A DNA stretch of 64,000 nucleotides from positions 18,068,085 through 18,132,084 of the forward strand of contig OY727103.1 of NCBI GenBank assembly GCA_963402885.1, in the 5' to 3' direction. The stretch is from Antedon bifida (lineage: Eukaryota; Echinodermata; Crinoidea; Comatulida; Antedonidae). Shown piece by piece: positions 31,351-64,000 of the stretch. The position numbers and the translations under genes were made by a program. Under the pieces are notes generated by a model. The model saw nothing but the letters and a program-made list of their open reading frames with translations, made no database searches and was not told the DNA's origin. Within the stretch, counting starts at the first letter, position 1. The number at the start of each line of letters is the position of its first letter.

Positions 31351-31355
31351 GAGAT

Positions 31356-40552: not shown

Positions 40553-41098
40553 TACAGAATTTGCTAGTGTAGACTTTGTCAACTCGTGGTCTACATTAAC
40601 AAACGTTGAAAAACTTTTCTTGACAAACTCGACTTAGGAAACAAACTTTGCCAATGTAGAATAGGTTTAATACTAAACTAAGGTCTCGTTTACACTATAA
40701 ATCAATCTTTAATTTGCATTTTCCGAGTTTGACCAGTTGACAGAAGTTAGGCAGTGTACACCTTATTGACAAACTATTTTGCTGATGATCAGCTTTGTGA
40801 CAATCAGCCAATTAAATAACAGTATTTAGTGTTTTGCAGTCACGTGATCTTCCAGATAGACAAATAGACAGTTTGCAGTAACTAGTCTTGTAGAAATCAC
40901 AAAATTCTCCAAACACAAGAGTTTGCAAATACAAATTCGGCAAAGTTTGCTAATGTAGACAAACCCAGCGAACAGTAGTAGTCTTCGGTACTTTGCAGTC
41001 ATGTGGTTCTCCGAGTAGACAAATTGACATCCTTCAGTAACTAGTCTGGAATCGAATCGAAACAGTTGCAAACTAAAAAGTTTCTATTGTAGATTAAG
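40553..41098. mobile_element. Repeat element just upstream of the GPCR
   Basis: Segments recur within it. TTTTGCAGTCACGTGATCTTCC followed by CAGTAACTAGTCTTG (about 40832-40895) is echoed by CTTTGCAGTCATGTGGTTCTCC followed by CAGTAACTAGTCTGG (about 40992-41052), and AGTTTGCTAATGTAGACAAA is complementary to TCTACATTAACAAACGTTG near the left end. It looks like a hairpin-type element with an internal tandem duplication. It lies directly in front of, or in the 5' intron of, the receptor gene. Confidence 0.5.
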
Positions 41099-41157
41099 CA
41101 TACAACTTTAAAATATCTTCCATTATATTTTTCAGATTGTGCAACTTCTGTTCTACA

Positions 41158-43944: not shown

Positions 43945-44170
43945 AAAGCTTAGTTCCCACTAGGACGTAGTCTGGGTTCCAGGCGGAGTTTTGACTTAAT
44001 ATTAGTAAAAAGATAAATATTTTGGCACACATGTCGTTTCATACGTAGGCCTATACTACTTGAGCAATCAGACAAACATCGAAAAGCCTCAAAACGCCTC
44101 GAAATAACTACAGACTTGGGGCAAGTCTAACTAGGACGCAACGTAAGGAAAGAAGAAAGTCCAACGCAAG
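43945..44170. mobile_element. MITE remnant, 'CCCACTAGGACGCAACG' family
   Basis: AAGCTTAGTTCCCACTAGGA at the left end matches the family. CTAACTAGGACGCAACGTAA near 44130 is in the same orientation, not inverted, so this is a rearranged pair of ends. Confidence 0.45.
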
Positions 44171-44385
44171 TGAGTTGATCAATGGCAAGCGACAGTCCGA
44201 ATAATCCATCTTTTGTGATATAAATCAACACTTGGATTGCGCTCAAGTTGTTGTATTCCGCGCCTTCGTGTGAAACCAAGTATAATTGGACAACTTTGTA
44301 ATTAACCAAAGTCTCTCCACTGAATAGGAGTTGACTGCTGGTGTTGAAACGTACAATTCCCCTTGTTCGTTTTACGGAAAAGTGT

Positions 44386-44418
44386 CCCCTTAATATGGGT
44401 TTTACTGTATTACAGTAG
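44386..44418 (-). mobile_element. pogo/Tigger-like terminal repeat remnant
   Basis: GTGTCCCCTTAATATGGGTT plus TTACTGTA is the complement of the ACAGTAAAACCCATATTAAG GGGACAC-type end seen in pogo-like elements such as the copy at 10.09 kb. No matching second end is obvious. Confidence 0.4.
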
Positions 44419-44429
44419 TTTTCAGTCAT

Positions 44430-45353
44430 TATATCTGCTTATTGTTATTATATGGTACATTTATTAAAGTAAAAGGAATAAATTTATACAATTCGAAAAA
44501 AACTAATTAATACAGTACAGTATTACAAACGTTTTTACGGCAATTGCAATTCAATTTAACCATTATATTAAATATATTACTGTATTGTAATGTTATATGA
44601 ACGTTTTATTAATGGTAGGATATGTAGGTTAATATTGAGAAATATACATAACAAAACGATTCAATATAGTTCATAGTCCATACGGAAATTCATGTGACAT
44701 ACAATATTGTTCAAAGTTAAAAGATTAATACAATAAAATTACATAGCAACAAAATTCAACGACTCAACTACGGTTATTAAAATATCTAATTGAGTATGGA
44801 ATAAAAGAATTAAGGAAGCGTTTTGTTCTACAACGTGTAGCCCTCAAACGCCTTCCAGATCTCAACCATTTAAAATCACTATAGAGCGGATTGCTCTCAT
44901 CTTTCATTATGGCAATGACCTTATCATAAATGTTGACGTTACAAACATCATCAAATCTAATGATCTGTGTATGTATTTATATTATTGTTGTATATATAAA
45001 TTATTACATATTACTTTATGTATTATCTATCTATCGAGGGCCGGGTTGGGAATATTGCTGTTAATAAATTATATATACCAATCTGTGAGTTTTTCGCTAT
45101 TTAATATAATGTATACAATTGCACGATTAATGGCTGGTGAAATTAAAAACTGTAAACTTATCGATAGACTTAAGCTACGTTTATGACAAGCCCGGATGTT
45201 GTTCTGGATGTCTGAGGCAGAAATCGTGAATGATGCATGAATGATGATATTATTCATTTTATCTATGCTAACGAACTACAAGATAGCCGACCTGTTTTCT
45301 CAATATAACTGAATCTAATTCACTCTACATAGTCTCTCTCTTAACTAGTAAAA
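44430..45353. other. AT-rich non-coding stretch
   Basis: Nothing recognisable. The overlapping frames at 44971-45257 on both strands are short and domain-free. Confidence 0.4.
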
Positions 45354-45480
45354 CAAGGCCATATACATGGCTGCAGTCGCGTCTCAAGTTAGTGTTTACC
45401 GACCAACCGACCGACCGACCGACCGACCGACTAATCGACTGCCAAGGTGAGCTGTAGAGTCGCATTGAACGCGACTAAAA
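45354..45480 (+). repeat. ACCG-core short interspersed element, copy 6
   Basis: This is a full-length copy: AACAAGGCCATATACATGGC, TGCAGTCGCGTCTCAAGTTA, GTGTTTACCGACCAACCGAC with an expanded ACCG run, GTGAGCTGTAGAGTCGC, and CGCGACTAAAAA. Confidence 0.75.
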
Positions 45481-45631
45481 ACCCACGAAGATTTCGATGG
45501 CTTTCGAACCACAAACTGAAATCTATACCAGTTTTAGAAAGAGACATTCCGATTAAAGACCAAAGCTATTAAATGCTACTAAAACATGTTTTAGTTTTAT
45601 CTTAAGCACGAATTCAGGTTTTTTTTCCTTA

Positions 45632-45776
45632 ATCTCTGTCTACACTATCACACTAGTTTGACAAAAAGTGTGATTTGATTTAATACGGTAGTGATATCAT
45701 GATCATCATCATCTCCATATATGGGCACATCACATTATTTAGTCACATAAAGTTTGATAGTGTTGACAAGGCTTTA
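45632..45776 (+). mobile_element. MITE, 'TCTACACTATCAAAC' family, copy 4
   Basis: CTCTGTCTACACTATCACAC at the left is inverted against GTTTGATAGTGTTGACAAGGC at the right. The interior keeps AAAAAGTGTGATTTG and CATATATGGGCACATCACAT. Confidence 0.7.
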
Positions 45777-46280
45777 GTCACTACATATTGATTTATTTTG
45801 CCTATCCACTGTTTTTTTTTTTAGCTTAAGCAGAGATACAGTGACGTATTTGCTTAATATTCTTCTATTTTTTCTTAAGCAAAAAGATTGATAAATGTTA
45901 AATGTTCAAATACTGATTAACACTTCGGGTTGATAAGCTGGATTTCATTGTTATATCTTCATTATCGAATGATTTATGCAATTTTAATACATAATTTAAA
46001 CATATTCGTCTAGACTTACTTGCTATAAATAAAATGCATGCAATATGTTTCCTCTTAAAGATCTGATCAAATGCATCTTAAAGATTGCGAGGCACTGTAG
46101 GAAAAAACAAAGTATTCATGTTTACTGAAATGAAATGAATAATTTCTTTAATGAATCGATCACATAACCTTCATTAAAAGATGATAACAATAGGGCATTT
46201 CAACTGAAGCAGGTGGAACTGTATCTTTAGAGGAAAAGCGCAACATAACAACTAATGCATTAACTGTAATCAGATATCTA

Positions 46281-46496
46281 AAGCTTGGTTCCCACTAGCG
46301 ACGCAACGTGACGCAACGTAACGCAACCTACGCAACGTAAGAAAATGCCCTTCCAATAATTGTGTTTTCCCCCGCCTGCGTGAAATCAAACCTTTTTTTG
46401 CAGCACTGTTGCGTCGTCGGTTCCCACTTGTGATTACGCAATACATCACTTTGCGTCAATACGTCACCGCGTTGCGTTCTAGTGGGAACCACGCTT
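46281..46496. mobile_element. MITE, 'CCCACTAGGACGCAACG' family, full copy with TA duplication
   Basis: The ends AAGCTTGGTTCCCACTAGCG and CTAGTGGGAACCACGCTT are inverted and flanked by TA on both sides. The interior has tandem ACGCAACGTGACGCAACGTA and the reverse TTGCGTCAATACGTCACCGCG near the right end. Length 216 bp. The TA target fits a Tc1/mariner-type transposase. Confidence 0.8.
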
Positions 46497-46739
46497 TATG
46501 GACCTGCGATTATAGAACTTTTAAGATAATCGACAAATGCAAACATTGATGCACTTTTGAATAAGTGTATATAATATACTAACTTTTGAAGTTGCAAGTG
46601 TGTACTGCGAGAAGATTTATTAACGTAGCTTTGATGACGCAAGGCCCTCGACTTAACGACACAAACCGAATGTCTATATTAGAACGCCTCTCATTGGATA
46701 AGTGGTAGCCAAGCATCATAACCCCCAAGCCACAACTCC

Positions 46740-46880
46740 ACTCCTCAACTCCACTCCTATGTGTTTCACATATATCTAGTAGTAACCTAACCCTTAACCT
46801 AACAGGCACCGCATGTGATATAATATAAATTAGATGCTGTCTTACCAAATATACCTTACTTTGGAAATAGATGTGGAGAT
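46740..46880 (-). mobile_element. MITE, 'CAGCATCTCATGTG' family, copy 3
   Basis: CTCCTATGTGTTTCACATAT, CCTAACCCTTAACCTAACAG, CATGTGATATAATA and GATGCTGTCTTACCAAATAT match the family in the opposite orientation to copies 1 and 2. More diverged. Confidence 0.6.
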
Positions 46881-46904
46881 ACCGCACTGGGAATCGGGTG
46901 ATTT

Positions 46905-47195
46905 CATCCGGCAGAGAGCGAAAACCGTAAACCTACCTAGGTTGTTTTAGGCAAGACACTTTACTTACATTTGCCTCTCTTCACCCAGGTGTATACATGT
47001 GTACCGGTTATAGATCAAGACACAACATTGCGCTGATTACTAGCTGCATTATTATGGGAGTTTCTATACGTGTTTGATCCAAAAAATTACCGGGGTAATA
47101 ATGTGCAGCTCATTGAGAACTATAATTAAGCGCCTTTGAGCATGTTTATTCATGAAAAAGGCGCTATATAAATGTGGTATATTATTATTACACAC
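46905..47195 (+). repeat. SINE remnant with conserved GCGCTATATAAATG tail
   Basis: It carries GGCAAGACACTTTACTTACA, TTTGCCTCTCTTCACCCAGG, GTGTATACATGTGTACCGGT, then AAGCGCCTTTGAGCATG and AAAGGCGCTATATAAATGTG followed by TATTATTATTA. This layout of blocks and a TATTATT tail is typical of widespread deuterostome SINEs whose 3' ends copy a LINE tail (family knowledge; exact family not determined). Confidence 0.6.
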
Positions 47196-49180
47196 AATAT
47201 CTAAAATCACAAAATATATCATCGATCAGATTTTGACATACATAGCTACCAGTACACTGTGATGGTGGGTATACAGCCAGAATCTATCACAAAACAACAT
47301 GGGCCTGCCTCTACACTGATTTCACCGTTTAGTATGTAGAGTACACCTTGAAATAATTATAATAACAACACTTCTATTTGCGTTTAAAATTATAAATACG
47401 TCCAGGAATCATTAGCATATTACAAAATTAAACATTGAGAAAATCTCATATTTTGTATATAAACCTGGGAAGGGTGCTCTTCCCTGGTATAACATAAGAA
47501 AATTAGCGTCATCCCAAACGGTATATTATGATTCTATCCCATTTCATTTCAGAACATTTATTTCTCTTTTCTTTTCTATTTCCAGTACAATCGTAGACGC
47601 AATTTCGCTCCATTTGATGAAATAAATATGGTAATATAAATGTATGTGATCATGAGAAAAATTGGATTGATTGTGGTTTGGTGTTTGGGGGTTAAAACAT
47701 ATATTATTTATTTGTGTTTGGTTGTTTGATTTGTCTTCCACTTTCTAACATCGTGTTGTAGGCCTACAATATCGTCGGAGTGGTTCGAAAGTTGATTAAC
47801 TGATCCTACCACCCACAGGCATTTTTTACCCACATTTGAAATAACACGTAACTGAATTACTTAGGCTAAATATCAATAAAAGAGCACGAGCACAGTTGGT
47901 CTAAACAATAATTAAAGCACGCGCAAAAGGGCGTTCGTGTGCGTTGCGTGAAAGATAAATATTAACTTTATTCACTATGGTAGGCCTATAATAATAAAAT
48001 AGGTGAAAAGGAGGAGAAATAAATTTCGGCTGACAACGTGTAATTATGATTCCTGAATATTTTGCTTACTGGATTATTTTGAAAGCGTGTAAGGACGTGA
48101 CCACTACTATAGACAAAAATCAATAGGCCTACATCCGACAATGTTCACAGTATTTTACACGGGTAGGGTAAAATTGGTCCACGTCCACCATAGTTAGCGA
48201 TAATATACATATATTGCCTGCTTAGAGGTGAAATATAAGATTTGACATCCCCGAGGGAATGATTTTTTGCTCGAGGGAAATATATTCCAGAGTATTATTA
48301 ACAATTATTGACCCATTACTTACCCGGGTAAATAGAATGTTTAGTGGCCGGGGAGGCTTGAGAAAAGGACCTAGTGAAGCGGGTGCGCACAATGGACTGA
48401 GTAGGCCTATGCTACAACACACCAATTCGGATGCTAGTCAAGTCGTCCCATCGCAAATCTCCCCATACAAATGCTTGTATCAAAGCAAATTGGGTGCTAT
48501 ACCCTGTCCCATGTGTGAACGCTGCATGTCGTAGTTATAATGTAACCTTTTCTGCTTTCACAACGTGTCTTTACATGAATTGGAATCAAACATATTTAAT
48601 TTTTTGAAATGGTAGGCCTACTGTTAACCTAATTCCTATGATACAGTAGAAATATGTGACACCAATGACTGCTGTATCACATAATTTGCATAGATGCTGG
48701 AAATGATGTCCTTTGCATAGATACAGTAGGCCGAGTATTGTTTAAAAATGTATTTATATAAACTGCTTATTCGTCAATTGAACAAATTCATTGTAAAGCG
48801 GCGTTGCTTTTCTTTTTATTTTTATTGCATATATTAACTAATAACAGGGCATTATTCCAAGCATGAATATTTATAACAACTTTGTCAGTCGTTAAATTAA
48901 ACATGTTAGCGACACGCAACAGGTAGTTTAAATCATTTGTTATTATTCTTTTAATAAATTTAATTAAGCCTACTGTAGAAATAAATTAATTTTGTTGATA
49001 TATTTATAATAATATTTATGTGTGTATAATCAGCTCATCATTTTTTCTCGAAGGCGCCATGACTATATACCATATTATTTAACACCATATTATTTTCACA
49101 TAACGTGAAAGGGTTTGCCATTTTAAAGATGGCAAAAACAAAAATCCTCATGGGAAACTGTGATCCTTTTCTATCATTAG
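47196..49180. other. Non-coding stretch
   Basis: No gene is supported. The 91-codon plus frame at 48259-48534 has no domain; there are scattered TAGGCCTA motifs. Confidence 0.4.
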
Positions 49181-49512
49181 CCAACGCAAGTCTGGGCATG
49201 CGCACAACTTCACAAGATGCACAATTATTTTAGACAACGCACGTCTGTGCATGCGCACAACTTCACAAGATGCACAATTGTTTTAGACAACGCAAGTCTG
49301 TGCATGCGCACAACTTCACAATTATTTTAGACAACACAAGTCTGTGCATGCGCACAACTTCACAAGATGCACAATTATTTTAGAAAACGCAAGTATGTGC
49401 ATGCGCACAACTTCACAAGATGCACAATTATTTTAGACAACGCAAGTCTGTGCACGCGCACAACTTCACAAGATGCACGTCTGTGTATGCGCACAACTTC
49501 ACAAGATGCACA
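49181..49512 (+). repeat. Minisatellite, 53-bp unit with GCATGCGCAC
   Basis: Six to seven units read CAACGCAAGTCTGTGCATGC, GCACAACTTCACAAGATGCA, CAATTATTTTAGA. One lacks the AAGATGCAC part and the last are shortened. Each unit has the near-palindrome GTGCATGCGCAC, close to an NRF-1 site. The array ends about 160 bp before the left end of the large transposon. Confidence 0.85.
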
Positions 49513-49672
49513 TTGAGATAATGATTAGCTTTAGCCTGTTATCCACCAGGCAAAATAATGTATTCGCGCTGATTGGGAGGAACTGTCACTGCGAAAAATG
49601 CACAACCAATCAATACTCGGGAATATTCGCCTAAACAGAAAATTTTATAAAAATTAAATAAATTAAATTTAA

Positions 49673-50100
49673 TTACTTTTAAAGGATAACTTGACTGAGG
49701 ACCATATTTTAACAACGTATTAGGAATGTACATATGATTTCAAGACAATCGCGAGATTAAGGATATCGCCACACGCGCTCGCCGTACAGTCGTCGTAAAT
49801 TGATGTGACGTCAGAGGTGCATCGCAAAATCTACTTAATGAGTTTTCACTGTTAACATAGAAGAGATAGGTACCGTCACTTCAGTTGCTAATTTTACCTG
49901 TATTAGGCTTTAATTTGCCAAAATGTTTAGTCTAGTATTTTGAAGAAACACTTCAATATCCAGATAGGCAAAAGAAACAAGAAAAAAATCAACATTTATA
50001 TTTTTTACGATTTATTTAAAAAGTGTGTTTACTAGAAATGTTCGCCATTTGTAAGATTGAGAAAGTATGACGTATGTGATGACGTGTTGGAATCATTCAA
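49673..50100 (+). repeat. Left outer terminal inverted repeat
   Basis: GAGGACCATATTTTAACAAC, then AAGGATATCGCC, CGCGCTCGCCGTACAG, GAGTTTTCACTGTTA, and CACTTCAATATCCAGATA all recur inverted at 63035-63481. Mismatches are frequent enough to show that the arms have diverged since insertion or are not recently homogenised. Confidence 0.88.
49806..49813. promoter_or_regulatory. CRE palindrome in left TIR
   Basis: TGACGTCA is a perfect cAMP-response-element palindrome. It is conserved at the mirrored site in the right TIR (63338-63345), within otherwise mismatched surroundings. Confidence 0.55.
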
Positions 50101-50172
50101 CCATATCGCACTCAAAACGTGTGGTGTGACACGCGCGATGGGTCGTGTCGGTGTGTGTGGTGGTGATTCTGC

Positions 50173-50580
50173 CTATATCTACGGTGGCCCACAACTGTCA
50201 CGCACAGTATATAAATCATATTCACACAATTAAAGAAGAATCACACAATTAAAGAAGGAATCACACAATTAAAGAAGAAATTGCACAATTAAAGAAGAAA
50301 TCGCATATAAACAAAAGAAAGCATGAAAATATAAAACGAAATGCACAAATAAAGAAGAAACGCGCAATTAAAGAAGAGCTTCGCACAATTAAAGAAGTCC
50401 GCAACAAATTCGAAAGCTCCTCGCACAATTAAAGAAGTCCGCAACAAATTCGAAAGCTCCTCGCACAATTAAAGAAGTCCGCAACAAAATCAAAAGCTCC
50501 TCGCACAATTAAAGAAGTCCGCAACAAATTCGAAAGTACCTCGCACAATTAAAGAAGTCCGCAACAAATTCAATTCCTCA
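50173..50580 (+). repeat. Left inner inverted repeat with subterminal tandem array
   Basis: It starts TATCTACGGTGGCCCACAAC and includes a TATA box. Four or five short units of the type CACAATTAAAGAAGAAAT come next, then five units with an exact 40-bp period starting at 50381, 50421, 50461, 50501 and 50541. The unit reads TCGCACAATTAAAGAAGTCC plus GCAACAAATTCGAAAGCTCC. The same array occurs inverted at 59707-60068. Arrays of this kind next to terminal repeats commonly bind transposases (family knowledge); the role here is inferred. Confidence 0.9.
50208..50215 (+). promoter_or_regulatory. TATA box for the HECT gene
   Basis: TATATAAA lies about 430 bp before the HECT start codon and is conserved at the mirrored position in the right arm. 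Transcription would start near 50240, placing the 40-bp repeats in the 5' leader. Confidence 0.6.
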
Positions 50581-50638
50581 CTACTGCAAACGCACAAATT
50601 CAATTCCTCACCGCAGCAGACGCACGTGTTCAACTGAG

Positions 50639-50720
50639 ATGATGTTTTTTTGTCAAGCTTGTGGTAAACATAGGCCTATTCAGCACAAATTTTGTGCCAA
50701 TTGTGGGACCAGTATTTTTG
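50639..50720 (+). other. Coding exon 1 of the HECT gene (zinc ribbon)
   Basis: ATG at 50639 opens 27 codons plus one base, ending at a consensus donor G|GTAAGT. Key residues: Cys5, Cys8, Gly9, His16, Phe18, Cys19, Cys22, Gly23. It is too short to be found as a single frame. A second ATG directly follows the first, so either may serve. The next exon starts by completing Asp28-Leu29. Confidence 0.8.
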
Positions 50721-53700
50721 GTAAGTTTTATTAAGTAATATTTATTTGAGGGATATGTTCCAGTGGGTTGCCTTTTTACTAGGTGGTAGGTAGGCCCTAA
50801 TGCCGGGGGAAGGTAGGTTTGCATGGCATGGATGGATCATGGCTCCATGCATGGATCTAAACGGGCTAGAAGATAAGCCTGTTGCTATAAAAGCCCAATA
50901 CAGACCTACCATATACAGGTACGTCTCCCTCCAATTAAAGACCCCTCTAATCAGGGAGGTATAAGCTCCCTGCTCTAATTAAAAACTCCCTCCAATTAAA
51001 GATAGGGATACCGAGAGCTGACTCCATTTTCATTACCACGATTAAACAGCGCGCACGTTACTACGCGCGCAATGTCATTGACGCGGTGTTTTTTTTACTT
51101 TGGTAAACACTTTTTATTAGGTAATTATTTTGAAAATAAATTAATTATGAAAATATCCTTTTGAGTAAATATTTATTTACCTATTATTCTATAAGATCAA
51201 GTATTTTTTATTTCCATTTCATTCAACCAAAAATGTGAATATAAGTGGTTAAAAAAGATTATTAATATCGCCTAGCGCCTATAGCTTTTACTACGAAACC
51301 CTCGGAAGGCTCAATGACCTACCATTTTCAACCTTATTTTTTTAGTTCTCTAGAGATATCGAAGTCGCATATTAAGGGGACACTTTCCTTTCAAACGAGG
51401 GGATATAGGGCCTAATTAATATTTTAACACACGACCAACCCCTATTTATATTCCATTCTGGTTATATATATACATATACATGTACATATACATATTCATG
51501 TAATACAAAAAGGATCTCGGTGTCAAGTCTTTGACTTTCCAGTCCGACATTGTCCAATTAAATGTAAAATGTTATGACATTTTTCATTGGCCAGGCCTAA
51601 TTGTTACCCCACTTCGTATCACCAACATTGTCAATTTTGGCCCTAATTAGTAATATATTAAAGATGTATAGTCCCTTGAAACAGTACAAATAAAGATCAA
51701 TCAATTTCAATTTTGAATAGACCATAAATATAGTTATATGAAAGTTATACACTTTACGTCTAAAAATCGAGCGAAAAAACAAACAGTTTACATAAATACG
51801 GGTAAATTAGTGTGATTATATTTCGTCCTAATAATGCTACTCCGTAAACCGTTAAAACAGAGATTTTTTAAAAAATGTAAAAACAATGCATTACTATAGA
51901 GAATCGCTGTACAAAATAAACGCGTAGAGCCAGCCAGAGCCGTTAAATTGAATGGATTAAAGCTATTTTTTTTTGGTTTAAAATCATCAAAATAATGTTA
52001 TTATTGTTTTAACAAAAACCTTTAAACAAATTGATTCAATCCATTCAAAGTCGCAACTCTTTATGGCTCTGGGTTTGTTGATGTACTACGCATGCGCATG
52101 TACGTGTGAACAGATTGTATAATTAGGGCGTTATAACGCCCTAATTACGGCGTTATAATGCCCTAATACGGCGTTATAACGCCGTATTTTTATAAAATAA
52201 TTTTTTTCTTTGGCGGAAATCAGCCACCGTACGGATCACTGGCCACGTTCGCCGACAATGAAGAAATACGTTTCCGTGATCGCTTGATGAATGTTGACCA
52301 ACCATAGGCCTATAAATGGATTTAAAAGGATGGAATTCTAAAATAGGCATTACTTCCTCAGCCACATATGATCATTATGTGGCCCTTCATCATCCCACTG
52401 CTAAAACAGACCGGGACCAACTTGCCCAAGTTATTTTCTCGACGGTATAACATTTCCCTGGCTGCAGTCGAGGCCTCATCCTCCTAGCCTAAGCCTAGGG
52501 TCGGATACCCGCCCTAACTTATTTCAACCTTCTTTCTATTTGTATTGTATAGGCCAAGGCATATGGAATTCAATTTAAAGTAACTATAGGCCTATTGTGT
52601 TTAAGTGTTCGATTGATTTATCAGAGTATTATACCAGGCCTACTAGGAGTTTATACGAGTCGCATTCAAGTTAAGTTTTCGCCGTCGACGATATCGGCAG
52701 CAAAAGTGTTGTGTTTGCATAATTCATGAGCAACGCATTGCAAGTCGGAATATGTTTTACTTAAATTCCGCTTGAGAAACGCTGTCTGTCAGACAGTTAT
52801 TTTTTTTAGAAATTAGTCTGTATCTCTTTTTTTCAAGCTATTTTTTGGTGAAAGTTAATAACTATTATGATATTTCAAAACGGCAAATTTCATTTCAAAA
52901 TCTATTTTTTACCATTTTTAAAATTTATTCAAAGGGACAATACATCTTTAAGGTTGGTTCAAAACTGCCGCAACGTACGCAACGCAACGTAAGGACTGCT
53001 CTTCCGACAATATCGTTACAAAGTACATACGGTTCCCACTTGGGTCTCATGCGAACGGAACGCAGTCATTTCCGCGGGAACATACCTCTTGCGTGCACTT
53101 GATACCTTGCGTCTCGTCATTGCGTTGTGTCCTAGTGGGGACCAAGCTTTATGATGATTGAAATTCCCTTGTCCCTTTGAAAAATGACTTGCACAGGATT
53201 TCAAATTGCAACGCAGCACCCTGATTCACAATTTCCCAATATCATCATCTTTCCATTGTTTGTATGTCATTTCAAAAACTTGCTCATACAATTGTTTTTT
53301 TTTATTTTAATCTTAAATGTATACTGTATGCCTACTTTGAAATTGCATGAAAAGTATTGTTACAGTATATTAATTAATTAACTCTAATGATGGTTACTCA
53401 TTTTCAATTAAAATAAAAGAAGAAGAATCTATGTTTATCATTTTCACTTTGTTGATTTGTTTTTTCAAGAACACGCTAAGTCTCCCATGGGATATCCCTA
53501 TTAAGGGGACACTATTGGTGTGGTTGAGTTTTTGATGTTCATGGAAATTGATCCAGGCTAGTTATTCATATCATAGACTTTACTGCCTTACTGCAATCGC
53601 TGTATAAATCACCTACGGTACTACTTCATAACATTTGTTGTATTATTATGTAATGTTTTTTTGCAGATCTTGACAAGCCAACTACTAGTACAACACCAGA

Positions 53701-55771
53701 TATACCACCATCATCAAGTTTCATGCCTACAGGTAATTAGACAAAAAATAGGATCAGGCATACTGTAAGGCTATTGAAGAAGACGACGACGACATTAAAA
53801 AAAATGCGAAACCTCACTATTAGTAGTTAAAACACTGTTACTTAATTTTGAATTACTGTAGCCTACCCGTAACTGGTTTTAAATTTTTATTTTTTAGGTA
53901 GTGGCCCAATTAAATCTTTTGAATCATACAGAAAAGGTAAAGGCAGAGAGTGGAAAACAAGAGTGACCAAGAAAAAAGATGATAAAGATAGAGACCAAGA
54001 TGTTGTTATCACGCTTGGTCTTCTTGAATGGTCAGCGCAAGGATTATGCCTAAAACAAAAGCGTGGTCAACGATTGGCATTGAGAGTGAGCACAAAGGAT
54101 TCTTACAAGACAATCCTTGACAAAGCAGAGAAGAAATGGAAAGACTACAATTGTGATTCATACACTGAAACAGAGTACATTCTTGCATACAGTAATGGTA
54201 AATGTGCACAGTTTATGCCAGGGACATTTCAGTTTTTTGACTTGAAGAAGTACAGAGAAGAGGTGGGAAAGGAATTCAAGCGTATAGTGTTCTATCTGTG
54301 CACTCTGGAAGACCATCTCTTGGCAGAAAAGAAGGATATTGATAGTGAACACGATTCTGAACCTCTCACTAAGCAGATGAGAGTATTTGATGAATTTGAT
54401 ATCACTACCTTTGATGATAATGCATTTACAGCAGAGTCATTGCTAAGCAACGTACAACCACAACATACAGCCACTGAGAACAATCACAGCTCTACAGCAA
54501 TATCCACAGAAACCACAAATCCACCAGTAGCAACAAACGAGCAAGTGATAAATACATCATGCACAGAAGTTGAAGAATTTGACAGGAAAGAATTGTCATT
54601 CAAAGAGAAACTGGAAAACATTGGAAAGGCATTTCAAGACAGTGGTGATCCGGAAATTCTATCTGTACGTCGAAGGAAGCTCTGGCAGGACACTGCTCAA
54701 AAACTTGGTCGTCTTTATGCGAATTGCATAAAACCATTCAGTGTGTCATTCATTGGAGAAGCTGGTATTGATGCCGGGGGCCCGAAAAGAGAATTCTTTT
54801 CTTTACTTTTTGATGACTGCAAAAAGCATCTCTTCGCTACTGGTGATGGTAGCAGTTTCACCTTACTCCATGATGTTGAGAAGATGAGAAAGGGGGAATT
54901 TCAGCTACTTGGTAACATGATTTCTATTGCACTGCTGTATGAATGTGCAGGGCCACGTTGCTTCACCCCCTCATTGACTGCATGCTTACTGAATGGTCCA
55001 GAAATTCGACCAACCATTCAGGAGATTCCCGATTTCGAAATTCAGGAGAGATTAAGATCTTTAATGGCAGCAAAAGATGATGAGGAATTTCAGGGTATGA
55101 TGTCAACCTTTGAAGAAAGGTTTTCCTTTGGTGTGACCCGGTTCAAGGTTCCCTTTTCTGAAAGGGAAGATATGACCAGAAATATTGCCCAGCATTTTTG
55201 TATTTCCGCTTGCAATGAAGAAATACAAGAGGTTCGAAGAGGAATGGAGGTTATCGGGGTGCTTAAGGTTTTAGAAGAGCATTATGAGGAAAGTAAACAT
55301 GAGTTCCTTCTGTCAGAAATTCAGAAAGCTTCAAGTATTCTCGGTATATTTACCAGCATAGAATACACACATGTGAAAGAAGGGGATTCGCTTGATAGGG
55401 GGAAAAGAGATTTGGAAGAAGACATATTTTATAACTTCACAAACTGCATGGAGACTCTACAGCACGAGGGTACAATGGAATTACCCCTTATCATCCTTGA
55501 AGATGATGGCTCTGAGAGGGAAATTAACACTGTAATTACTTTGCAGGAAGTAACAAGATTTGTCACAGGATCAAAATATGTAACGGCGTCATTAGAGGGC
55601 AAAGGCACGATTTGCTTCGACCACTTGAAAAGAAGTGGCACACTCATGGTCAACACATGCAACATTGTATTGACTTTTCCTGTTTTGGAGAAATACTATG
55701 GATCTCCAGATGTTTTTATTAAGAGTTTCTTTGAAGATATGCGTTCAGATTCTGGCTTTGGTATGGTATAG
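50639..55771 (+). CDS. HECT E3 ubiquitin ligase with N-terminal zinc ribbon (transposon gene)
   Basis: Three coding exons, 50639-50720, 53667-53732 and 53898-55771, join in frame (phase 1 at both junctions; donors GTAAGT and GTAATT, acceptors TTTTTTTGCAG and TTTTATTTTTTAG) to give 673 residues. Exon 1 encodes a zinc ribbon with Cys5-X2-Cys8, X10, Cys19-X2-Cys22. Exon 2 is a Thr/Pro/Ser-rich linker. Residues about 55-190 form a conserved-looking charged domain I cannot name. Residues 240-275 are a low-complexity Thr/Asn-rich linker. The HECT domain runs from about 320 to the end: GEAGIDAGGPKREFF at 336-350, and the catalytic region NTCNIVLTFP with Cys637, 36 residues from the C-terminus, closing on GFGMV. 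It resembles the G2E3-like HECT proteins that are abundant in invertebrate genomes. All key residues are present, so activity is likely. A plausible AATAAA signal is at 56201. The gene converges on the integrase gene. Confidence 0.88.
50925..51005 (+). repeat. CCTCCAATTAAAGACC repeat in HECT intron 1
   Basis: TACAGGTACGTCTCCCTCCA and ATTAAAGACCCCTCTAATCA, then a second CTCCCTCCAATTAAAGA, form the block. A related block lies inverted at 58872-58958, in the first intron of the integrase gene, so either it belongs to the element's ancestral inverted repeat or the same small repeat inserted twice. Confidence 0.55.
52122..52186. repeat. Nested palindromes with GCGTTATAACGC core
   Basis: A perfect 24-bp palindrome at 52122-52145 (halves ATTAGGGCGTTA / TAACGCCCTAAT) is followed by an imperfect one and by a perfect 20-bp palindrome TACGGCGTTATAACGCCGTA at 52167-52186. 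The core CGTTATAACG is shared. The cluster can form stable cruciforms. Confidence 0.85.
52951..53149. mobile_element. MITE, 'CCCACTAGGACGCAACG' family, in HECT intron 1
   Basis: AGGTTGGTTCAAAACTGCCG plus CAACGTACGCAACGCAACGT at the left, and CATTGCGTTGTGTCCTAGTG plus GGGACCAAGCTT at the right, flanked by TA on both sides. Inserted later than the host transposon. Confidence 0.75.
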
Positions 55772-56293
55772 CATGTTACATAACATTTGTTACACATCAA
55801 CACATTTATTTTACATCATATAGTATTAACATAGTATAACATGTGATAATTAATAACAATCATTACATATCATAACCATTTTGATGATTATTATTACATA
55901 TAACAGTTTTTATCGTATTCAAACTAAATTAAGCTTGAGTCGTTCTGTGACAAAACGACGTAACTTGGAATCAGTTTCTGAGAAAATGTATACAGTCATG
56001 TGATAATCAACATTTCAAAATTTAAATATAAGTATAAGTAGTAAAGTAAAGTGATATGTCCTTTTTACAGTAACAGACAGTTATTACACTACCGTATTAG
56101 AAAAACATTGTAAAAATAATTGGAGGCCAATTTCACTGCTAAATTTATGACTACAAAATTGCTTCTAAAGTGTTGTCCTCTATAGTCAGTCAGTAGGCCT
56201 AATAAAGAGTTTTGTTTTCATTTATTACGTATACAACGATTTCCCAACGTGTCTGTCTTTATGATGTGCTTCCATTTTCTGTTTCTTTAGGCT

Positions 56294-56441
56294 AAAGGCG
56301 GGTTTCCATCGGGCGCGGTAACGGAGCGCGGAGCGGAAAACCTAATTGGAACATAAAATGAGAGCGAATTGTGTTCCAATGGATTAGAATAGCTTTTTCC
56401 GCTCCGCGTTCCGTTACCGCGTCCAATGGAAACCTGCCTTT
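56294..56441. mobile_element. Hairpin MITE, 148 bp
   Basis: AAAGGCGGGTTTCCATCGGG plus CGCGGTAACGGAGCGCGGAG CGGAAAA is matched by an inverted TTTTTCCGCTCCGCGTTCCG plus TTACCGCGTCCAATGGAAAC CTGCCTTT. The central loop also pairs (ATTGGAACA / TGTTCCAAT), so almost the whole element is one hairpin. Confidence 0.85.
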
Positions 56442-56664
56442 CGGGAGGTTTAGCTACCAGTACGTGGTACGCGTAGAAAATGTGCTGACGTCATTGATTT
56501 TGCGCACATCTCAATCAATTGTTACGCATGGAACATTTACGCGTAGATTCCAGGCATTCCTGAGTAAAAAGCGCAACAAATTCTACCCGTAGGCCTCCCC
56601 TACACATACCTAGCAACGGGTAGCTAACCTCCCTATTGACAAAGCCTAACGTATGTCTCGCATA

Positions 56665-57178
56665 AAGGCCTGTTTATGACTACAACGATAACGATCGACG
56701 ATAAAAAGATTAAAGCTATTTTTCCTATAGAAAATATAAGAAGTAGTTTTTATACCAGCATGATTCAATAACGATTTATTGTGTACACGATAAAAAAAAT
56801 TTCCACAAATCAATTTAATTATATGACGTCACAATCATGGAAAAACGATGAAATCGTAGTAGTACGTACAGACAATTTTATCGTTTTTTCATGAATATGA
56901 CGTCACTTTATTCGATTTGTGAAAGTATTTTTGTATCGTATACACGATGGAGAGAGGCATTATATACCAATAGATAAAAGCTTTGGTCCTCTCTCCTTCA
57001 TCTTTTTTTTTTCTTTGTAATGTATTATACCATATGGACAATTGTCTGAAATAAAAGTTGAATTGATAGATCGTTATTGAATCGTGCTAGTATGAAAAAT
57101 TCTCTTATTTATTATATTTTCTATAGGAACAATTGCTTTTTATCGTCGATCGTTATCGCTGTAGTATAAACAGGCCTT
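56665..57178. mobile_element. MITE with TA duplication, 514 bp
   Basis: The left end AAGGCCTGTTTATGACTACA plus ACGATAACGATCGACGATAA is inverted at the right end (TTTATCGTCGATCGTTATCG plus CTGTAGTATAAACAGGCCTT), with TA on each side. The internal halves also pair (TATTTTCCTATAG / CTATAGGAA...). A fragment of the same family is at 21057. Confidence 0.85.
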
Positions 57179-57530
57179 TAGATACCAGGTTTTCTTTGCA
57201 GTGATTCTGCACATGTAAACAAGCAAAACAGTGACTACTGGTTCTCCTCAGGTCTTATAAACATAATTGAGTGCAATTTTGTTTTATGTGATTAGAGTTA
57301 AAGGGGCCTTCAACAGCCGGAATTAGATGACTTTTCAGGAGAGTGGCGGACGTTAATTTGTTGATACATAGGTGGTATTCAACATTGGTTATATGATAAA
57401 TGAATGGTCCATCGGTTCTTTGAAAATCCTACAATTTATGAACAATCTATTTCCGTATTTATTATTAATAGTTTAGAAAATAAATAAAGCTGGTGCTCAG
57501 TGTTCATCATTATTGATATGTCGCATGAGG

Positions 57531-59596
57531 TCAATTAATCCCTACTTCAGAAATATGCAACAGGGTCTGATATCGGTTGAGGGCTTCACTCCAATTGTTA
57601 GAACGAGGGATCACCGCAGAGTTTTGTACCATTGTGAAGTAATCTAGGTATTCGTTGGACGTTTCTGTCAAGATAACATGTTGACTAACATATTCCAATT
57701 CAGGCCTTTCAACTTGCAGTAGAAGGTTTCTTTCACCACCGTGGATATCCGGTAAAAAATACAATGAATTTGGCCGCCCGTGCACTGTATTATGTCGAGA
57801 TCTTCTTATGAAATGAGTATTCCAATGTTCCTTTACGTTGTCTAGGTCTCTTTGCAGCAGAGAAGAGAAACAGAACCACAAGCATTCTTTACTTATTATT
57901 GATGACATGTCAATGATACGCCTAAATTCAAGATCTGCAAAAAAGGTTCTCCACCATGACGCATACTGCCTTGCAAAGAAAGACCACCACCCCTCTATAC
58001 GTTGATTTCTTGGCGATGGTACATATCTATGAGACATATCATTATCACGAAAGTAGCACTGCATTGCCGCTGCAATACCATTTTCTGTACCTAGGTCCGT
58101 TACTAGTTCAACTGGGCATCCACCAAGCTCTTTGACGCTTTTAAGATACATAGCAGCGATGTTGTCAGGAGATTTATTCGAATCCGTGACATTGAGCCAC
58201 AATACACGCCTGCTGAAGCCATCGATGGAGCCATGAATAGGGAAACCCCAGGGCTTCAGCTTGTCATAGCCGTCTATGTGCCATGCATAGTTTGGCCCAG
58301 GGTTTGTATACTGTCTTCGACGTAGTCGATGTCGGCGCCGCAAAATCGTTCCTGCTGGATCAATTTCTTTCAGCAATGCCTCCACCACTGAACGGGGACA
58401 ACGAAGTCCTTCCATTTCTAAGGTGTGCCAGATAGAACGGTAACCACTCAAACTTCCTGGGCCATTGATAATTTCGACGATTCGCTGCCGTATGTTAGTT
58501 AATTTGGTGCGAAATTCATCAGTGTCTCTATTGCAACGTCTTCGTAGCCCAAGCTGGCGAAGTCGCCTAAGAAGTGTACTGTAGCTCATTGTTAAACCGT
58601 GATACCGTTCAAGGAATGCAAGTATTTCGTTGTATTCGTAACCGCTGTTGAAGTAATATGAGATTGCTTCCTCCTCATTGAAATTGTTTTCAGTTTCTTC
58701 AGTGTCGACTTCATTCTGTGGGTCAATAAGCTGGAGCTGAAGATCTGTAATGACCAAAAACAATCATAATAAGGTATAATTAAATAAAAGATATACATAC
58801 TGTACGTTACATCATTCCACAAAAACAAAAGACCACTTTTCTGTTACACCAATGGATACCAAAGAGGCAGTCCTTAATAAAGTGATTCTAATTAGAGACT
58901 AAAGACCGCTAAAACCCTGGTCCCTAAAGTGGTCTTTAATTGGAGGGAGACCTGTATTAACTAAGTAAATAGTTGTCCCAGATTTTACAACATCTAGTAG
59001 CATGAACACTCAGCCTGAAGTGAACCTGAAATACAGCTGAATTAAAATAAAAACTGTAATTTATTCAGTGACTCTACAACATATTCATTACTATTCTATA
59101 AATTGTTTTGCTTTAATTATTTGAATTTATATTACTATCACCTATTAAAATCAACATTGTTCAAGCAAAGAACCGATTTTAACTAGTCCAGCTATTATTA
59201 GTACTTGTATTGCAATTACAGTACAGTAAAATAGCTATTTTCGTCAACAGAGGGCGCTATTTCTGATGTATTTCCTTATGTTCAAATAATATTTTTTGCA
59301 GCTAAAATTTCACTTTCTCTTTATGTTTTGGAAGTGGGATCAACTGAATTATTAATTAGATACATATCAACTATACATTTACATTGTATCATCCAATCTT
59401 CCTAAGACTAAGAGGAGATCACAAAATCCACTTTCTAGGCCTCTTTTTCAGGCTCATGCCCCACAGTCTATATAGGGCCTAAGGCCTACGCACGGTTTGC
59501 CTATCTACAAAGCTAGAAAATGTACCCACCGTGTCCACAATGATGGCAAAAATGAGAATCTTCTGACAGGGATGTCCCACAGATGTCACAATACAT
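57531..59596 (-). CDS. IS3-like DDE integrase/transposase with N-terminal zinc ribbon
   Basis: Two coding exons on the minus strand, 59596-59530 and 58744-57531, join in frame (phase 1; donor G|GTGGGT, acceptor TTGGTCATTACAG) to give 426 residues. Exon 1 encodes a zinc ribbon, Cys3-X2-Cys6, X10, Cys17-X2-Cys20. Residues about 46-92 form a helix-turn-helix-like region with LLRRLRQLGLRRR. Residues 100-150 match the IS3-type HTH preceding the catalytic core (GYRSIWHTLEMEGL, then a basic RRRHRLRRR stretch). The rve core has Asp180 (WHIDGYD), Asp239 (VTDLGTENG) and Glu273 (NQRIEGWW), a D-D33-E triad, so it looks catalytically complete. The C-terminal 130 residues are Trp- and Arg-rich and unassigned. 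It should bind the inverted repeats and catalyse transposition. Alternative: an additional 5' exon is possible, but the ATG, the zinc ribbon and the exact phase support this start. Confidence 0.87.
58745..59529 (-). other. Intron 1 of the integrase gene
   Basis: 785 bases from donor GTGGGT to acceptor CATTACAG on the minus strand. It contains an inverted CTCCCTCCAATTAAAGACC block near 58872-58958. The rest is AT-rich and shows no exon. Confidence 0.65.
59530..59596 (-). other. Coding exon 1 of the integrase gene (zinc ribbon)
   Basis: 22 codons plus one base from ATG (59596-59594) to donor G|GTGGGT. Key residues: Cys3, Cys6, Gly7, His15, Phe16, Cys17, Cys20, Gly21. The Cys spacing is identical to that of the HECT first exon, yet the codons differ widely, so the two exons are old paralogues and not a recent copy. 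Confidence 0.78.
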
Positions 59597-59706
59597 TTTC
59601 ACTACGACCAACGAAGTTCAAGTCCATCAAATCGCATCATCTTGACTGGCTGCTCACACACACCACCTGTCATCCATGAAAGCTTACACCAAAGGACCAG
59701 GCCACG

Positions 59707-60068
59707 TCGAGTTACTTTCGAATTTGTTGCGGACTACTGTACTTTAATTGTGCGAGGTACTTTCGAATTTGTTGCGGACTTCTTTAATTGTGCGAGGAGC
59801 TTTTGATTAATTTTGTTGCGGACTTCTTTAATTGTGCGAGGAGCTTTCGAATTTGTTCCGGACTTCTTTAATTGTGCGAGGAGCTTTCGAATTTGTTGCG
59901 GACTTCTTTAATTGTGCGAAGCCCATCTTTAATTGCGCGTTTCTTCTTTATTTGTGCAATTTCTTCTTTAATTGTGTGATTCCTTCTTTAATTGTGTGAT
60001 CCTTCTTTAATTGTGTGAATATGATTTATATAGTGTGCGTGACAGTTGTGGGCCACCGTATATATCAG
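59707..60068 (-). repeat. Right inner inverted repeat with subterminal tandem array
   Basis: About four and a half units of the 40-bp repeat (on this strand CTTTCGAATTTGTTGCGGAC plus TTCTTTAATTGTGCGAGGAG), then short TTCTTTAATTGTGTGAT units, then the TATA region and GTGACAGTTGTGGGCCACCG. It mirrors 50173-50580. One unit has a 4-base insertion and another has TTCCGGAC in place of TTGCGGAC. Confidence 0.9.
60024..60032 (-). promoter_or_regulatory. TATA box for the integrase gene
   Basis: TATATAAAT on the minus strand lies about 430 bases before the integrase start codon, the same spacing as on the HECT side. Conserved with 50208-50216. Confidence 0.6.
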
Positions 60069-63034
60069 GGTGCCTATGCCTAGCGTCCTAGGCCTAGGCT
60101 AGGCACACTACTAGCTAGGTATCGAGTCGGTCTGATAATTGTGACCGCCGTTTATGAACGCCTAAATTCATGAACTTTTATAATTTACTCACCATCGTCT
60201 TTGAGTACAAGTGTTAGGCCGATGGTTTTATTTACTATAAACATCGTCTTTATTCGGATCACCAAAAATCACCGCGATCGTATTAAAAGAGTTTTTAGTT
60301 CTTCGATATGGTTGAATTAAATCAGTCGGAAAGCCGCGTTGGTAACGCATCACTGATTTCATTCATTGTGAGGGCGCGCTTCGTGGAAAATGTTGGAATT
60401 TTTGCTATTTTAGTACACTTAGAAAATGGTATAATTTTGATATTAAATGAAATCAATAAACGTATTTCAATAGTTGAACTACAAGCGTAAATAATGATAA
60501 AAACTGTGATCTAAATTCCACAGATTTTTTGTTTCAAGAAATATCATTATTTTATGTATAAACTTTTTTACTTTAATTTTTTTTTAAATGATGGTAAAAA
60601 ATCATTAAATTTCATATTTTCTAGATAAGGTTTCAAAGCGAATTTAAAATCCTTTCAAGATAAACTATTAAGCTATCTATTAAAATAAAAATCTAATTTT
60701 AAGCTTTCTTGGGATGCAACTCCCACTAATCAAACCAAACCTACTACATTTCTGTTCTGTTTCGATCGAAAAATCGCCATTTTGAAACTTTGTTTACGTT
60801 TTACGAAGCTGGTACGAATCGTCCCGGACCGAATCGTGTCTGTGTTCAATACGGTTTTCATGCAGGCGTATTACGTCATAGGCCTAAGATTTCAATTTGC
60901 TCCCCGATTATTGTTCTATTTGGTTTCTGAGCTAGGAAAGGCTACCTACTATAATTACTTACTTGATTTCTAGCCTAGCTAGGCCTAAAAATAGTATTTT
61001 CTAGGCCTAGCTAGGCTGAGTATTCTGATATAATACTAATAATAATATTAGATAGGTAGGCCTACCCTAGTGAGTGTTAATAATAGTAGCTGGGTATTCT
61101 ATAGTCTAGGCTGGTGGTAGGTCTATCCCAGCTCTGCTCATATACCAAGCAAGAAGAAGCCTGAAGGAGAAACTAGGCCCAGAACAAATAAAAAACTGTT
61201 AAAAAAACAATAAATGGAAAAACAAAAAAAAATAACCCATTTTCAATTTATATATGGGGAATGTTTTATAAAATCGGGCATGTTTGTTTCAGAGACTCAA
61301 ACGTGTATTTTTATATGGTCATGTTTTTAAAAAAGATAATTATGGGCCCAGCTGAAACCAAGATATAAAAATATAAGTCCATCATTTACTTGAGTATTGT
61401 TACAGTGATTGGTTGGTACTCAGTATTTCAGTATCTGGCAGTAAATGTCACACTTGTATATAAATATTACTTTATTAGATACAACTTGCATTTCACACAA
61501 GCAACCAATTTTTTTTTACGTATACAGAATGTGAAAAAGCAGTTTTTAATACAAATATCTTTCAAACAATACTGATATAAATAGTAAATACTATACTACT
61601 GTATATAAAAACTTGCTTTTATTTAAATAGCACCTTGTTCATCAAACATAACAAACTAGCTAGGCCTATATCATATTAACTTACGTGAGTCTTACGGTTG
61701 TACTGATTTTATTATTGTTTTATATGTTTATATTGTATGTATCTGTGTGACTCTGGTTAATAAAGTAAATCAATCAATCAATTGCAACTTAATTTATATC
61801 TTATCATTGACTGATCTGAAACGCTACTAAAACTTGAATGCGTATGAATGTATATGTTATATTATTATTAGCGAATAAAATGAAAAACTATCAGCTGCAG
61901 CAATGATATTGAAATCGAGAAAACCATTACAGCTTCCACCGTCCAACCTCATATTGAAGAACGAGACAGAAAATCGTCGAGTCTTGATACCAACAAAAAA
62001 CCTAAAATGAAATGAATAGCTGAAATGTAATGAATGAAACTATTTAAATAATTGTCACTATGATATGAACAAAACATTGCATCGTTTAATACAGTATAAT
62101 TATTCAACAACCTGAAAACATTTTCAGATATAGGCCTACCATGAAAAAGCAGCAAATACAAAATTTCCTTATGTCTGTTTATTGTAATAATTATTAATAT
62201 TATAAATAAATTGTACCCCTCAGTTGTCAATAATTTTACTATAAATAAATATTTAACTATATAGAATAGGTAGGCCTATACCTGTATCAGGCTGCGATTT
62301 GCTTAATTATCTTTTTAAAACTTCCCAATGCATCTTCAATATAGAGTAGGATTGTAACGATACTTTAATAATACTAAATTGTAACTAAAGTATTTAAATT
62401 ATTAACAGAACATGTTACTAGGCCTAGGCCGATATAATACGACAACGATCCACCAGGTCGTGCATATACTCACCTACAACAACCACAATCAACACACCAT
62501 GCACCACACACGACGGAACTAGTGCCGCGAGACGTAACAATATATGACATGAGGACCTTTTTTAAAATGTTCGCTATAGGAAGCTTAAATAGGGTTTCAA
62601 GCCAATTTTAACGTAAAACAGACTATTGATACTTACTCTATCCATATACGTCGGTTTTTTGGTAATTCACTGTATGGGATGCAAATCCCACTAATGGAAA
62701 ATTTGTAAACAAACACCTGTTAGAAAACTTCAGTTTTGACGGACGCACACGAACTTTGGAAAGAAATTGTCGCTGACAACAAATCCAACAAATTATTCAG
62801 AAAATTAGGTGACCTGCGACATCTTAAACATATAAGGAACTGATCTTACCATATATGGTTAATTTTTCGCCAACTAATGTTTATTAAACAGCTATTAAAT
62901 GACGTATACTTTATGCTAATGTTTTCGCGCGAAACGTTGATGCTTCTGTGCCGAGAGAGGGCTTCTAAAATTTATGACGTCATGCGAAGTCGAAAATTCA
63001 GCGATAACGGTCATATTTCCCAACGCGGCTCTCC
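60069..63034. other. Extra 3-kb segment in the right arm
   Basis: The left arm has only about 70 bp at this place. The segment has no gene I can support. It begins and ends near an inverted 22-bp match (60321-60342 TCAGTCGGAAAGCCGCGTTG and 63020-63043), and GGGATGCAA-TCCCACTAAT recurs in direct orientation at 60711 and 62676. It may be a nested element, or the left arm may have lost this part. Confidence 0.6.
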
Positions 63035-63481
63035 GACTGAAATGATTCTAGAGCATGATACGTCATGTTTCTAGCTACTCGTCGGGTCAATAGACAAGTC
63101 CGGCAAATCGCGAAAATTTCTAGTAAACACACTTTGTAATCGTAAAAAATATAAATATTGATTTTTATTTTTGTTTCTTTTGCTTATCTGGATATTGAAG
63201 TGCTTTTTCAACATACCAGACTAAACATTTTGGCAAATGTAAGCCTAATACAGGTAAAATAAGCAACTGAAGTGACGGTACCCATCTCTTCTATGCTAAC
63301 AGTGAAAACTCATTAGGTAAATTTTGCGATGCACCTGTGACGTCACAGCAATTTACTGCGACGGAGCTGTACGGCGAGCGCGTGCGGCGATATCCTTAAT
63401 CTTGCGATGGTTCTGAAATCATATTATGCACATCCCTAATACGTTGTTAAAATATGGTCCTCGGTCAAGTTGTCATTTAAA
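63035..63481 (-). repeat. Right outer terminal inverted repeat
   Basis: Inverted counterpart of 49673-50100, about 80-85 percent similar by eye. It keeps GGATATTGAAGTG, GGTACCCATCTCTTCTATG, the CRE palindrome at 63338-63345, and CGTTGTTAAAATATGGTCCTC. Confidence 0.88.
63338..63345. promoter_or_regulatory. CRE palindrome in right TIR
   Basis: TGACGTCA, the mirrored match of the left-arm site at 49806-49813. Confidence 0.55.
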
Positions 63482-64000
63482 GTAGAACCTCTATCAATCA
63501 TTTGAAATCATCTCTGTTTTCCGTTTACCTTTCTTCAATTCGTCTCACCATCAATACCACACGCGATCTCAAAACTGTCTGTAAAACCATAAAACCAACT
63601 CATTCCAACACAATATAAGATACTCCAAACCTACACTGTGGAATAATCTTCCTTCCATTTTATTTAGACTCCTTTTAGAATGTTTTTTTAAATCAAAAAT
63701 CATATCTTGACCCTACCTTTATTTTATACAGATTATTTATTTATTATTTTATCTTTTCTTCTTTTTTTTAAGGCTCGCCCAACACAAAACTTTGACCTCA
63801 TATCAATTTGTTATTGCCTTGTTCGTTACTATATCTTTTATGTCAGAGTCTGTCTTCTGAATGGGGGTTGACCGTAGTGTAAATATTATTTCCAGTCGTT
63901 CCCTTACGGGTTGAAGGAAGTGTTAATAGGTGTCCACTTAAAGGACCAGGGGTGCCCAAAAGAGGGATTCTACAGCATTTTAATGTAAATCATAATGGAA
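63482..64000. mobile_element. pogo/Tigger-like element hosting the LINE remnant
   Basis: AGTAGAACCTCTATCAATC at 63481 and GGTGCCCAAAAGAGGGATTC plus TAC at 63957 resemble the two ends of the pogo-like MITE at 10.09 kb (CAGTAGAACCTCTATTAAGG and CCAAAAGAAGGCCCAGGTTC). The region between consists largely of the LINE remnant and its 3' tail. Ends are degenerate and the element may continue past the window. Confidence 0.4.
63534..63711 (+). pseudogene. LINE reverse-transcriptase C-terminal remnant
   Basis: Translation gives HHQYHTR, a stop or frameshift, then RYSKPTLWNNLP, FFKSK and a stop. This parallels the NYNTR ... GPLVWNNLS ... FKSK end of the LINE protein at 33.3-33.5 kb. Only the last 60 or so residues survive, with a break, so it is a dead 5'-truncated copy. 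It abuts the right end of the large transposon. Confidence 0.75.

Follow-up and report, generated by a model that had tools for sequence, protein, structure and literature searches.

A HECT-type ubiquitin ligase gene and a DDE integrase gene move together in the crinoid Antedon bifida

The DNA analysed here (the window) is a stretch of 64,000 nucleotides from the crinoid Antedon bifida (GenBank assembly GCA_963402885.1, contig OY727103.1, positions 18,068,085 to 18,132,084 of the forward strand). It contains a mobile element, assigned to a family that we call family A, which encodes a HECT-type ubiquitin ligase and, in convergent orientation, an rva_4/IS3-like DDE integrase. Co-mobility of the two genes is shown by copies of the pair elsewhere in the same genome. 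Very probably the element is a cut-and-paste DNA transposon of the IS3EU/GingerRoot type that was active recently and that moves the HECT-type ubiquitin ligase gene as part of its unit. The initial annotation, made from the sequence alone, had proposed that the HECT gene travels in the same mobile element as the IS3-like integrase, and this is borne out: the pair recurs identically, and two copies, the one in the window and one on another contig, have target-site duplications of their own.

Boundaries and copies of the family A element

The element and its termini were placed as follows.
50174..50179, no strand: left target-site duplication TATATC, a direct repeat flanking TACGG..CCGTA
50180..60060, no strand: family A mobile element, 9,881 bp, TACGG..CCGTA termini
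50180..50571, plus strand: left terminal inverted repeat, containing CACAATTAAAGAAG nine times
59720..60060, minus strand: right terminal inverted repeat, containing CACAATTAAAGAAG seven times on the minus strand
60061..60066, no strand: right target-site duplication TATATC, a direct repeat flanking the element

The 6-bp TATATC duplication is perfect. The terminal inverted repeats measure 392 and 341 bp and are 81.3% identical over 401 columns, their difference in repeat number included. All 16 exact matches to CACAATTAAAGAAG in the window fall inside these two repeats (9 + 7) and point inward, and shuffles give 0. Four traits of IS3EU/GingerRoot elements are found together: an rva_4/IS3-like DDE integrase, TAYGG..CCRTA-type termini, terminal inverted repeats and a 6-bp duplication.

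This inner inverted pair (50180-50571/59720-60060) is nested within outer inverted repeats (49678-50051/63104-63481), which are 88.5% identical over 383 columns and lie where they had been reported. The initial annotation took the outer repeats for the ends of an element enclosing two convergent genes. Both genes are indeed convergent and open; the outer pair, however, represents an older host repeat and does not mark the ends of the gene-bearing unit. It is the inner pair that is flanked by TATATC and whose ends recur beside both genes elsewhere.

The source genome assembly comprises 315.6 Mb in 27 contigs, with the window lying at C16:18068085-18132084. The HECT protein was found at 100% identity on contigs C1, C13, C15 and C16 (the window). 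Each of these four places also has the integrase at 100% identity, encoded on the opposite strand at a constant 3,637 bp from where HECT starts. The DNA is identical where compared, at 1,013/1,013 bp at C15 (L066) and 102/102 bp at each of five ends, and the flanking DNA differs at every copy end read. TACGG..CCGTA is present in the window, C1 and C13 copies, and at C15 at the left end only. In the C13 copy both ends lie where the window copy predicts and GCTAAG stands on both sides. Among the three family A copies with both ends, the 6-bp duplication is found in two (window and C13, not C1). Searching the source genome with both proteins, as had been recommended, returned recurring convergent pairs, bounded by the inner TACGG..CCGTA ends in the window, C1 and C13 copies.

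More degraded copies were also found. A fragment of the family A HECT gene (HECT-A) at C15:9.49 Mb has an adjoining integrase at 92-97% identity; where its right end was presumed to lie, matches were confined to the subterminal repeats. The HECT-A copy on C8 is frameshifted by deletions of 11 and 7 bp and has 18 mismatches in 1,854 bp. Searches at the presumed ends of the C8 copy, and at the presumed left end of the C15:9.49 copy, gave no match to the element. Counted by locus, all five family A integrases have HECT-A adjoining, and five of the six HECT-A loci have the integrase (C8 being the one without).

The family A element jumped into a copy of an older repeat family, whose parts lie on both sides of it.
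49678..50051, plus strand: left arm of an older, unrelated host repeat with a TTAAAGGACAACTTGACC end, outside the element
60318..63043, no strand: further repeat nested in the host repeat, with ends of about CAGTCGGARAGCCGCGTTGG, outside the element; a second copy, 98-99% identical, lies in L021
63104..63481, minus strand: right arm of the older host repeat, outside the element

The outer-repeat family has at least 49 genome matches (40 of 452 candidates scored), and some of its copies are short and internally deleted. Neither HECT nor integrase was found (E≤1e-3) in ten stretches of ~10 kb beside outer-repeat copies (L019-L028) or in ten short copies (L009-L018). Both flanks of the insertion site are present in seven fetched loci. 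A query made of the joined flanks aligned across the insertion site in 4/4 tested loci, those with the flanks close together (L022, L025, L028 and L047; 72-80% identity, E≤4.2e-22); L009, L041 and L026, with 343 bp, 76 bp and several kb between the flanks, were left out. The initial annotation had suggested looking for empty sites, and these four copies of the host repeat provide them, as paralogous rather than exact sites since the junction bases differ by a short indel. The outer right arm is lengthened by the nested insert of ~2.7 kb (about 60318-63043), which has inverted ends of about 20 bp. A single continuous terminal repeat of ~0.9 kb containing a nested insert was considered and dropped, as the nested insert sits in the older host repeat. 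TTTAAA was rejected as a duplication of the outer unit because TTAAAGG belongs to nearly every outer end read, and no clear target-site duplication for the older outer repeat was found at the ends read.

The two genes and their relatives

The HECT open frame spans 53873-55771 (+, 632 amino acids stop to stop) and the integrase open frame, convergent to it, 57531-58763 (−, 410 amino acids stop to stop). Besides these, no stop-to-stop frame of at least 150 amino acids overlaps 44000-64000. Spliced gene models were predicted from reading frames and splice signals. The predicted HECT gene joins 50639-50720, 53667-53732 and 53898-55771 into 674 amino acids and the predicted transposase gene joins 59596-59530 and 58744-57531 into 427, the stop being counted as one letter in both.
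50639..50720, plus strand: predicted HECT exon 1, zinc ribbon CX2CX10CX2C with a phase-1 donor; zinc-ribbon models score 20.6-21.4 bits, below cut-off
53667..53732, plus strand: predicted HECT exon 2 of the spliced model
53898..55771, plus strand: HECT exon 3, N-terminal region without assigned fold, HECT domain, catalytic Cys637 in the Asn-Thr-Cys (NTC) motif
57531..58744, minus strand: transposase exon 2, region like a helix-turn-helix (HTH) and rva_4 DDE integrase core
59530..59596, minus strand: predicted transposase exon 1, zinc ribbon CX2CX10CX2C with a phase-1 donor; PF13248 scores 28.0 and PF13240 26.3 bits, above cut-off

Two more inverted repeats lie between the genes, at 56294-56441 (73%) and 56663-56779/57066-57180 (80%); they are perhaps small repeats inserted in the element.

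The integrase matches PF24764 (rva_4) at 106.8 bits against a cut-off of 26, together with an HTH_21 match below cut-off. The key residues had been described as intact in both proteins, and they are: D180, D239 and E273, spaced by 58 and 33, in the integrase, and the catalytic Cys637 in the spliced HECT model. All six members of an alignment of the HECT family (A2) match PF00632 at E≤1, the best at 1.5e-07, and one relative (P0001) reaches 31.1 bits. The family profile reaches the HECT domain of E6AP at 1.3e-07, and Asn-Thr-Cys (N586 T587 C588) is invariant in all six rows. Because of the A2 matches, the E6AP profile match and the invariant Asn-Thr-Cys, the HECT assignment is firmer for the family than for the window protein alone. 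The six aligned relatives of the family A HECT protein are 49-62% identical.

Both genes open with a CX2CX10CX2C zinc-ribbon exon with a phase-1 donor; the ribbon passes the cut-off in the transposase but not in HECT. Similar N-termini were seen on the HECT proteins P0131 (23.1 bits, below cut-off) and P0001 (by eye, without a Pfam ribbon match) and on the integrases P0088 and P0122 (below cut-off). The initial annotation had spoken of HECT/G2E3-like genes, and the G2E3 subfamily has PHD-type zinc domains N-terminal to HECT. No PHD family is among the Pfam matches of the window HECT gene, which thus give no support to a link with G2E3.

Relatives of the integrase, among the 120 of 1688 matches listed, include named ones from Dendronephthya, Oculina, Paramuricea and Clavelina. 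Scans of viral contigs with the HECT protein and with the integrase found no relative of either. Three pairs of HECT and integrase relatives (P0002/P0010, P0003/P0012 and P0004/P0013) come from sources whose longest contigs are equal in size (1550588, 6118 and 3844). These represent 3 of 11 distinct HECT source-contig sizes, set against the 120 of 1688 integrase matches listed, and the size 3844 is also that of integrase P0053, which is from another source and outside the six-row clade described next. The equal sizes are suggestive of paired HECT and integrase relatives sharing contigs.

In a 121-row tree made by a quick method, the window integrase groups with P0010, P0012 and P0013 and with P0009 and P0011 in one clade (Shimodaira-Hasegawa-like approximate likelihood ratio test, SH-aLRT, 99); for P0009 and P0011 HECT linkage is not known. 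The HECT-linkage label needs 3 changes on the tree, because P0009 and P0011 sit in this clade, compared with a mean of 4.0 when labels are shuffled (10/500 shuffles as low). With linkage read indirectly from contig sizes, the integrase tree would fit one old HECT acquisition in family A.

HECT-integrase pairs across the genome

Further genomic analysis compared all PF24764 matches with all HECT matches, counting same-strand matches within 4 kb as one locus. This reduced 46 integrase matches to 30 rva_4 loci and 110 HECT matches to 48 clusters. A HECT locus lies within 10 kb of 20 of the 30 rva_4 loci, where uniform random placement would give 0.09, although copies within one family are not independent. 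Nineteen of these 20 paired loci are convergent and one (C1:6.83 Mb) has both genes on the same strand. Sorted provisionally by position and score pattern, they would form seven groups (A with five loci, B with eight, C with three, and four single). Moreover, HECT-integrase pairs may have been missed, because HECT-A itself escapes the genome scan with PF00632.

Family B is a second young HECT-integrase family, with eight loci that have an identical HECT score and fragment in the PF00632 scan. Six of these loci were fetched (L029-L034), and all contain a shared repeat that is mostly 99-100% identical, with longer pieces down to 96.8%. L033, the sole copy read at both ends, spans 258-9654 with TATGG..CCATA ends, ACCGTT on both sides and terminal repeats that are 98.3% identical. 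In L030 a multi-exon HECT gene (catalytic exon 36.0 bits) is convergent with an rva_4 integrase (227.9 bits). Over the matched part, the integrases of families A and B share 28% identity. Further HECT-rva_4 neighbours with more divergent integrases lie at C13:19.69, C8:19.27, C8:21.16, C8:23.29, C15:8.09, C10:18.18 and C1:6.83 Mb, six of the seven being convergent and one on the same strand. Three other integrase-adjoining loci match HECT-A at 36-37% over 82 amino acids. In the source genome, IS3EU-type transposases are thus repeatedly partnered by HECT.

Zinc ribbons on both family A proteins might bring the two to one place, an idea and no more, given that HECT of family B carries a different, finger-like exon, CLNCRADISMKNMKVHIKYC, whose Pfam matches are below cut-off.

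The initial annotation had suggested that spread of the element may explain the expansion of HECT genes. This holds in part, as 20/48 HECT clusters of the source genome adjoin an rva_4 integrase and the remaining 28/48 are not beside one; the counts are of match clusters in one genome, not of whole genes, and long introns may cause one gene to be counted twice or more. Separately, at least five clustered HECT C-terminal matches lie on the minus strand at C11:15.91-15.97 Mb, not beside an rva_4 match.

Proposed mechanism, alternatives and known systems

By analogy with its superfamily, the DDE integrase would bind the subterminal CACAATTAAAGAAG arrays, cut at TACGG/CCGTA and join the ends, staggered by 6 bp, to the target DNA. 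Each terminal repeat may double as a promoter, since one and the same repeated leader precedes both genes, stopping 65 bp short of the HECT start and 124 bp short of that of the transposase. The putative ligase would act in trans for the element, and we favour a role in which ubiquitin transfer aids transposition or blunts host control. The ligase could well clear silencing or restriction proteins of the host, a serious possibility if short of an even chance; somewhat less probably, it might act on the transposase or the transposition complex. That it has no role in transposition is doubtful.

A number of observations weigh against a recently active transposon that carries a ligase as part of its movement unit. 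The window HECT protein scores 18.4 bits with PF00632, below the cut-off of 23.9. In tblastn, HECT-A and the HECT of family B did not match each other at E≤1, so these two may be separate captures. At 10/30 rva_4 loci no HECT match lies within 10 kb, and no integrase match lies beside the C8 HECT-A copy. The C1 copy, whose ends are both where predicted, has the flanks CATAAA/AACATT and no duplication, and at its right end the C15 copy is ~91 bp short.

The outer repeats are real and well matched, as would be expected if they bounded a 13.8-kb unit, and yet almost no weight can be given to such a unit. No megablast match to window 49001-64000 was found at six predicted outer ends (C1, C13 and C15) or at a seventh at C8, positions that on the right would shift if the nested insert were absent from those copies, and the ends of the inner unit were found at the gene copies instead. 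The outer family moreover recurs without the genes, aligns across the insertion site in all four copies tested, and has arms far more diverged than the gene copies. It is just as hard to credit that the repeated copies are assembly duplicates: proteins identical at four places could suggest this, but the flanks differ at every end read and the duplications of the window and C13 copies are not the same.

Transposons can pick up host exons, and the HECT gene might be such a capture, a neutral passenger of no use to the element. The rva_4 loci that lack a HECT neighbour are in keeping with this. Against it stand the convergent HECT pairs formed with integrases as divergent as those of families A and B in one genome, and the conservation of the family A HECT protein among its six relatives, in which the Asn-Thr-Cys motif never varies; a mere passenger is therefore unlikely. 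In a single small comparison, intact HECT-A and a broken copy differ by 7 synonymous and 11 non-synonymous codon changes. It is very improbable that the ligase mainly benefits the host and that the elements persist through host recruitment. The HECT clusters without an rva_4 neighbour would allow it, but the scattered identical copies and the frameshifted C8 copy resemble transposon turnover rather than conserved host loci.

The preferred reading, a mobile IS3EU-type element with its own ligase gene, can be compared with known systems. In the available sections of a published account, IS3EU elements have an IS3-like DDE integrase, TA..TA termini and usually 6-bp duplications, all common to the window element (PMC10045372). 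Unlike the elements of that account, in whose main text 'hect' and 'ubiquitin' have 0 occurrences, the window element has HECT. TET+ IS3EU elements of fungi, as described in the sections available, carry transposase, TET/JBP and alpha-kinase genes between TAYGG..CCRTA ends with 6-bp duplications (PMC12730594). They resemble the window element in their ends, in the 6-bp duplication and in having a second enzyme gene (there the alpha-kinase) opposite in orientation to the transposase. The partners there, however, are an alpha-kinase and a dioxygenase, and 'hect' and 'ubiquitin' have 0 occurrences in those sections. The HECT catalytic module is shared with host HECT ligases including G2E3, and in the available part of the host survey 'transpos', 'integrase' and 'mobile' have 0 occurrences (Marin 2010, PMC2837046). 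Unlike G2E3, the window protein combines a zinc ribbon with an unassigned N-terminal region and has no PHD match. Within the available sections of the open-licence literature on IS3EU, GingerRoot, and HECT with transposons, a scope outside which Repbase and the GingerRoot paper lie, no HECT-bearing IS3EU element is named.

Within a known transposon superfamily there are thus recently mobile copies with a ubiquitin ligase gene of their own, and pairs of this kind recur with divergent integrases in one genome. By analogy with the fungal elements, the IS3EU superfamily may have arrived more than once at a protein-modifying partner. More broadly, animal IS3EU elements might typically consist of a DDE transposase and a convergent ubiquitin ligase working in transposition or counter-defence, with their spread accounting for much of the surplus of HECT genes in invertebrates; this is put forward tentatively, at a little under an even chance. 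Two questions can now be put to the test: does a DNA transposon control its movement, or the defence of its host, by means of ubiquitin, and do the large HECT gene numbers of invertebrates, a premise of the initial annotation, consist in part of transposon genes? HECT gene counts in annotated genomes may accordingly include mobile copies.

Elsewhere in the window, two further open frames were noticed by eye. One of 711 amino acids at 31353-33488 resembles the reverse transcriptase of a non-LTR (non-long terminal repeat) retrotransposon, and one of 367 amino acids at 41098-42201 resembles a seven-helix receptor.

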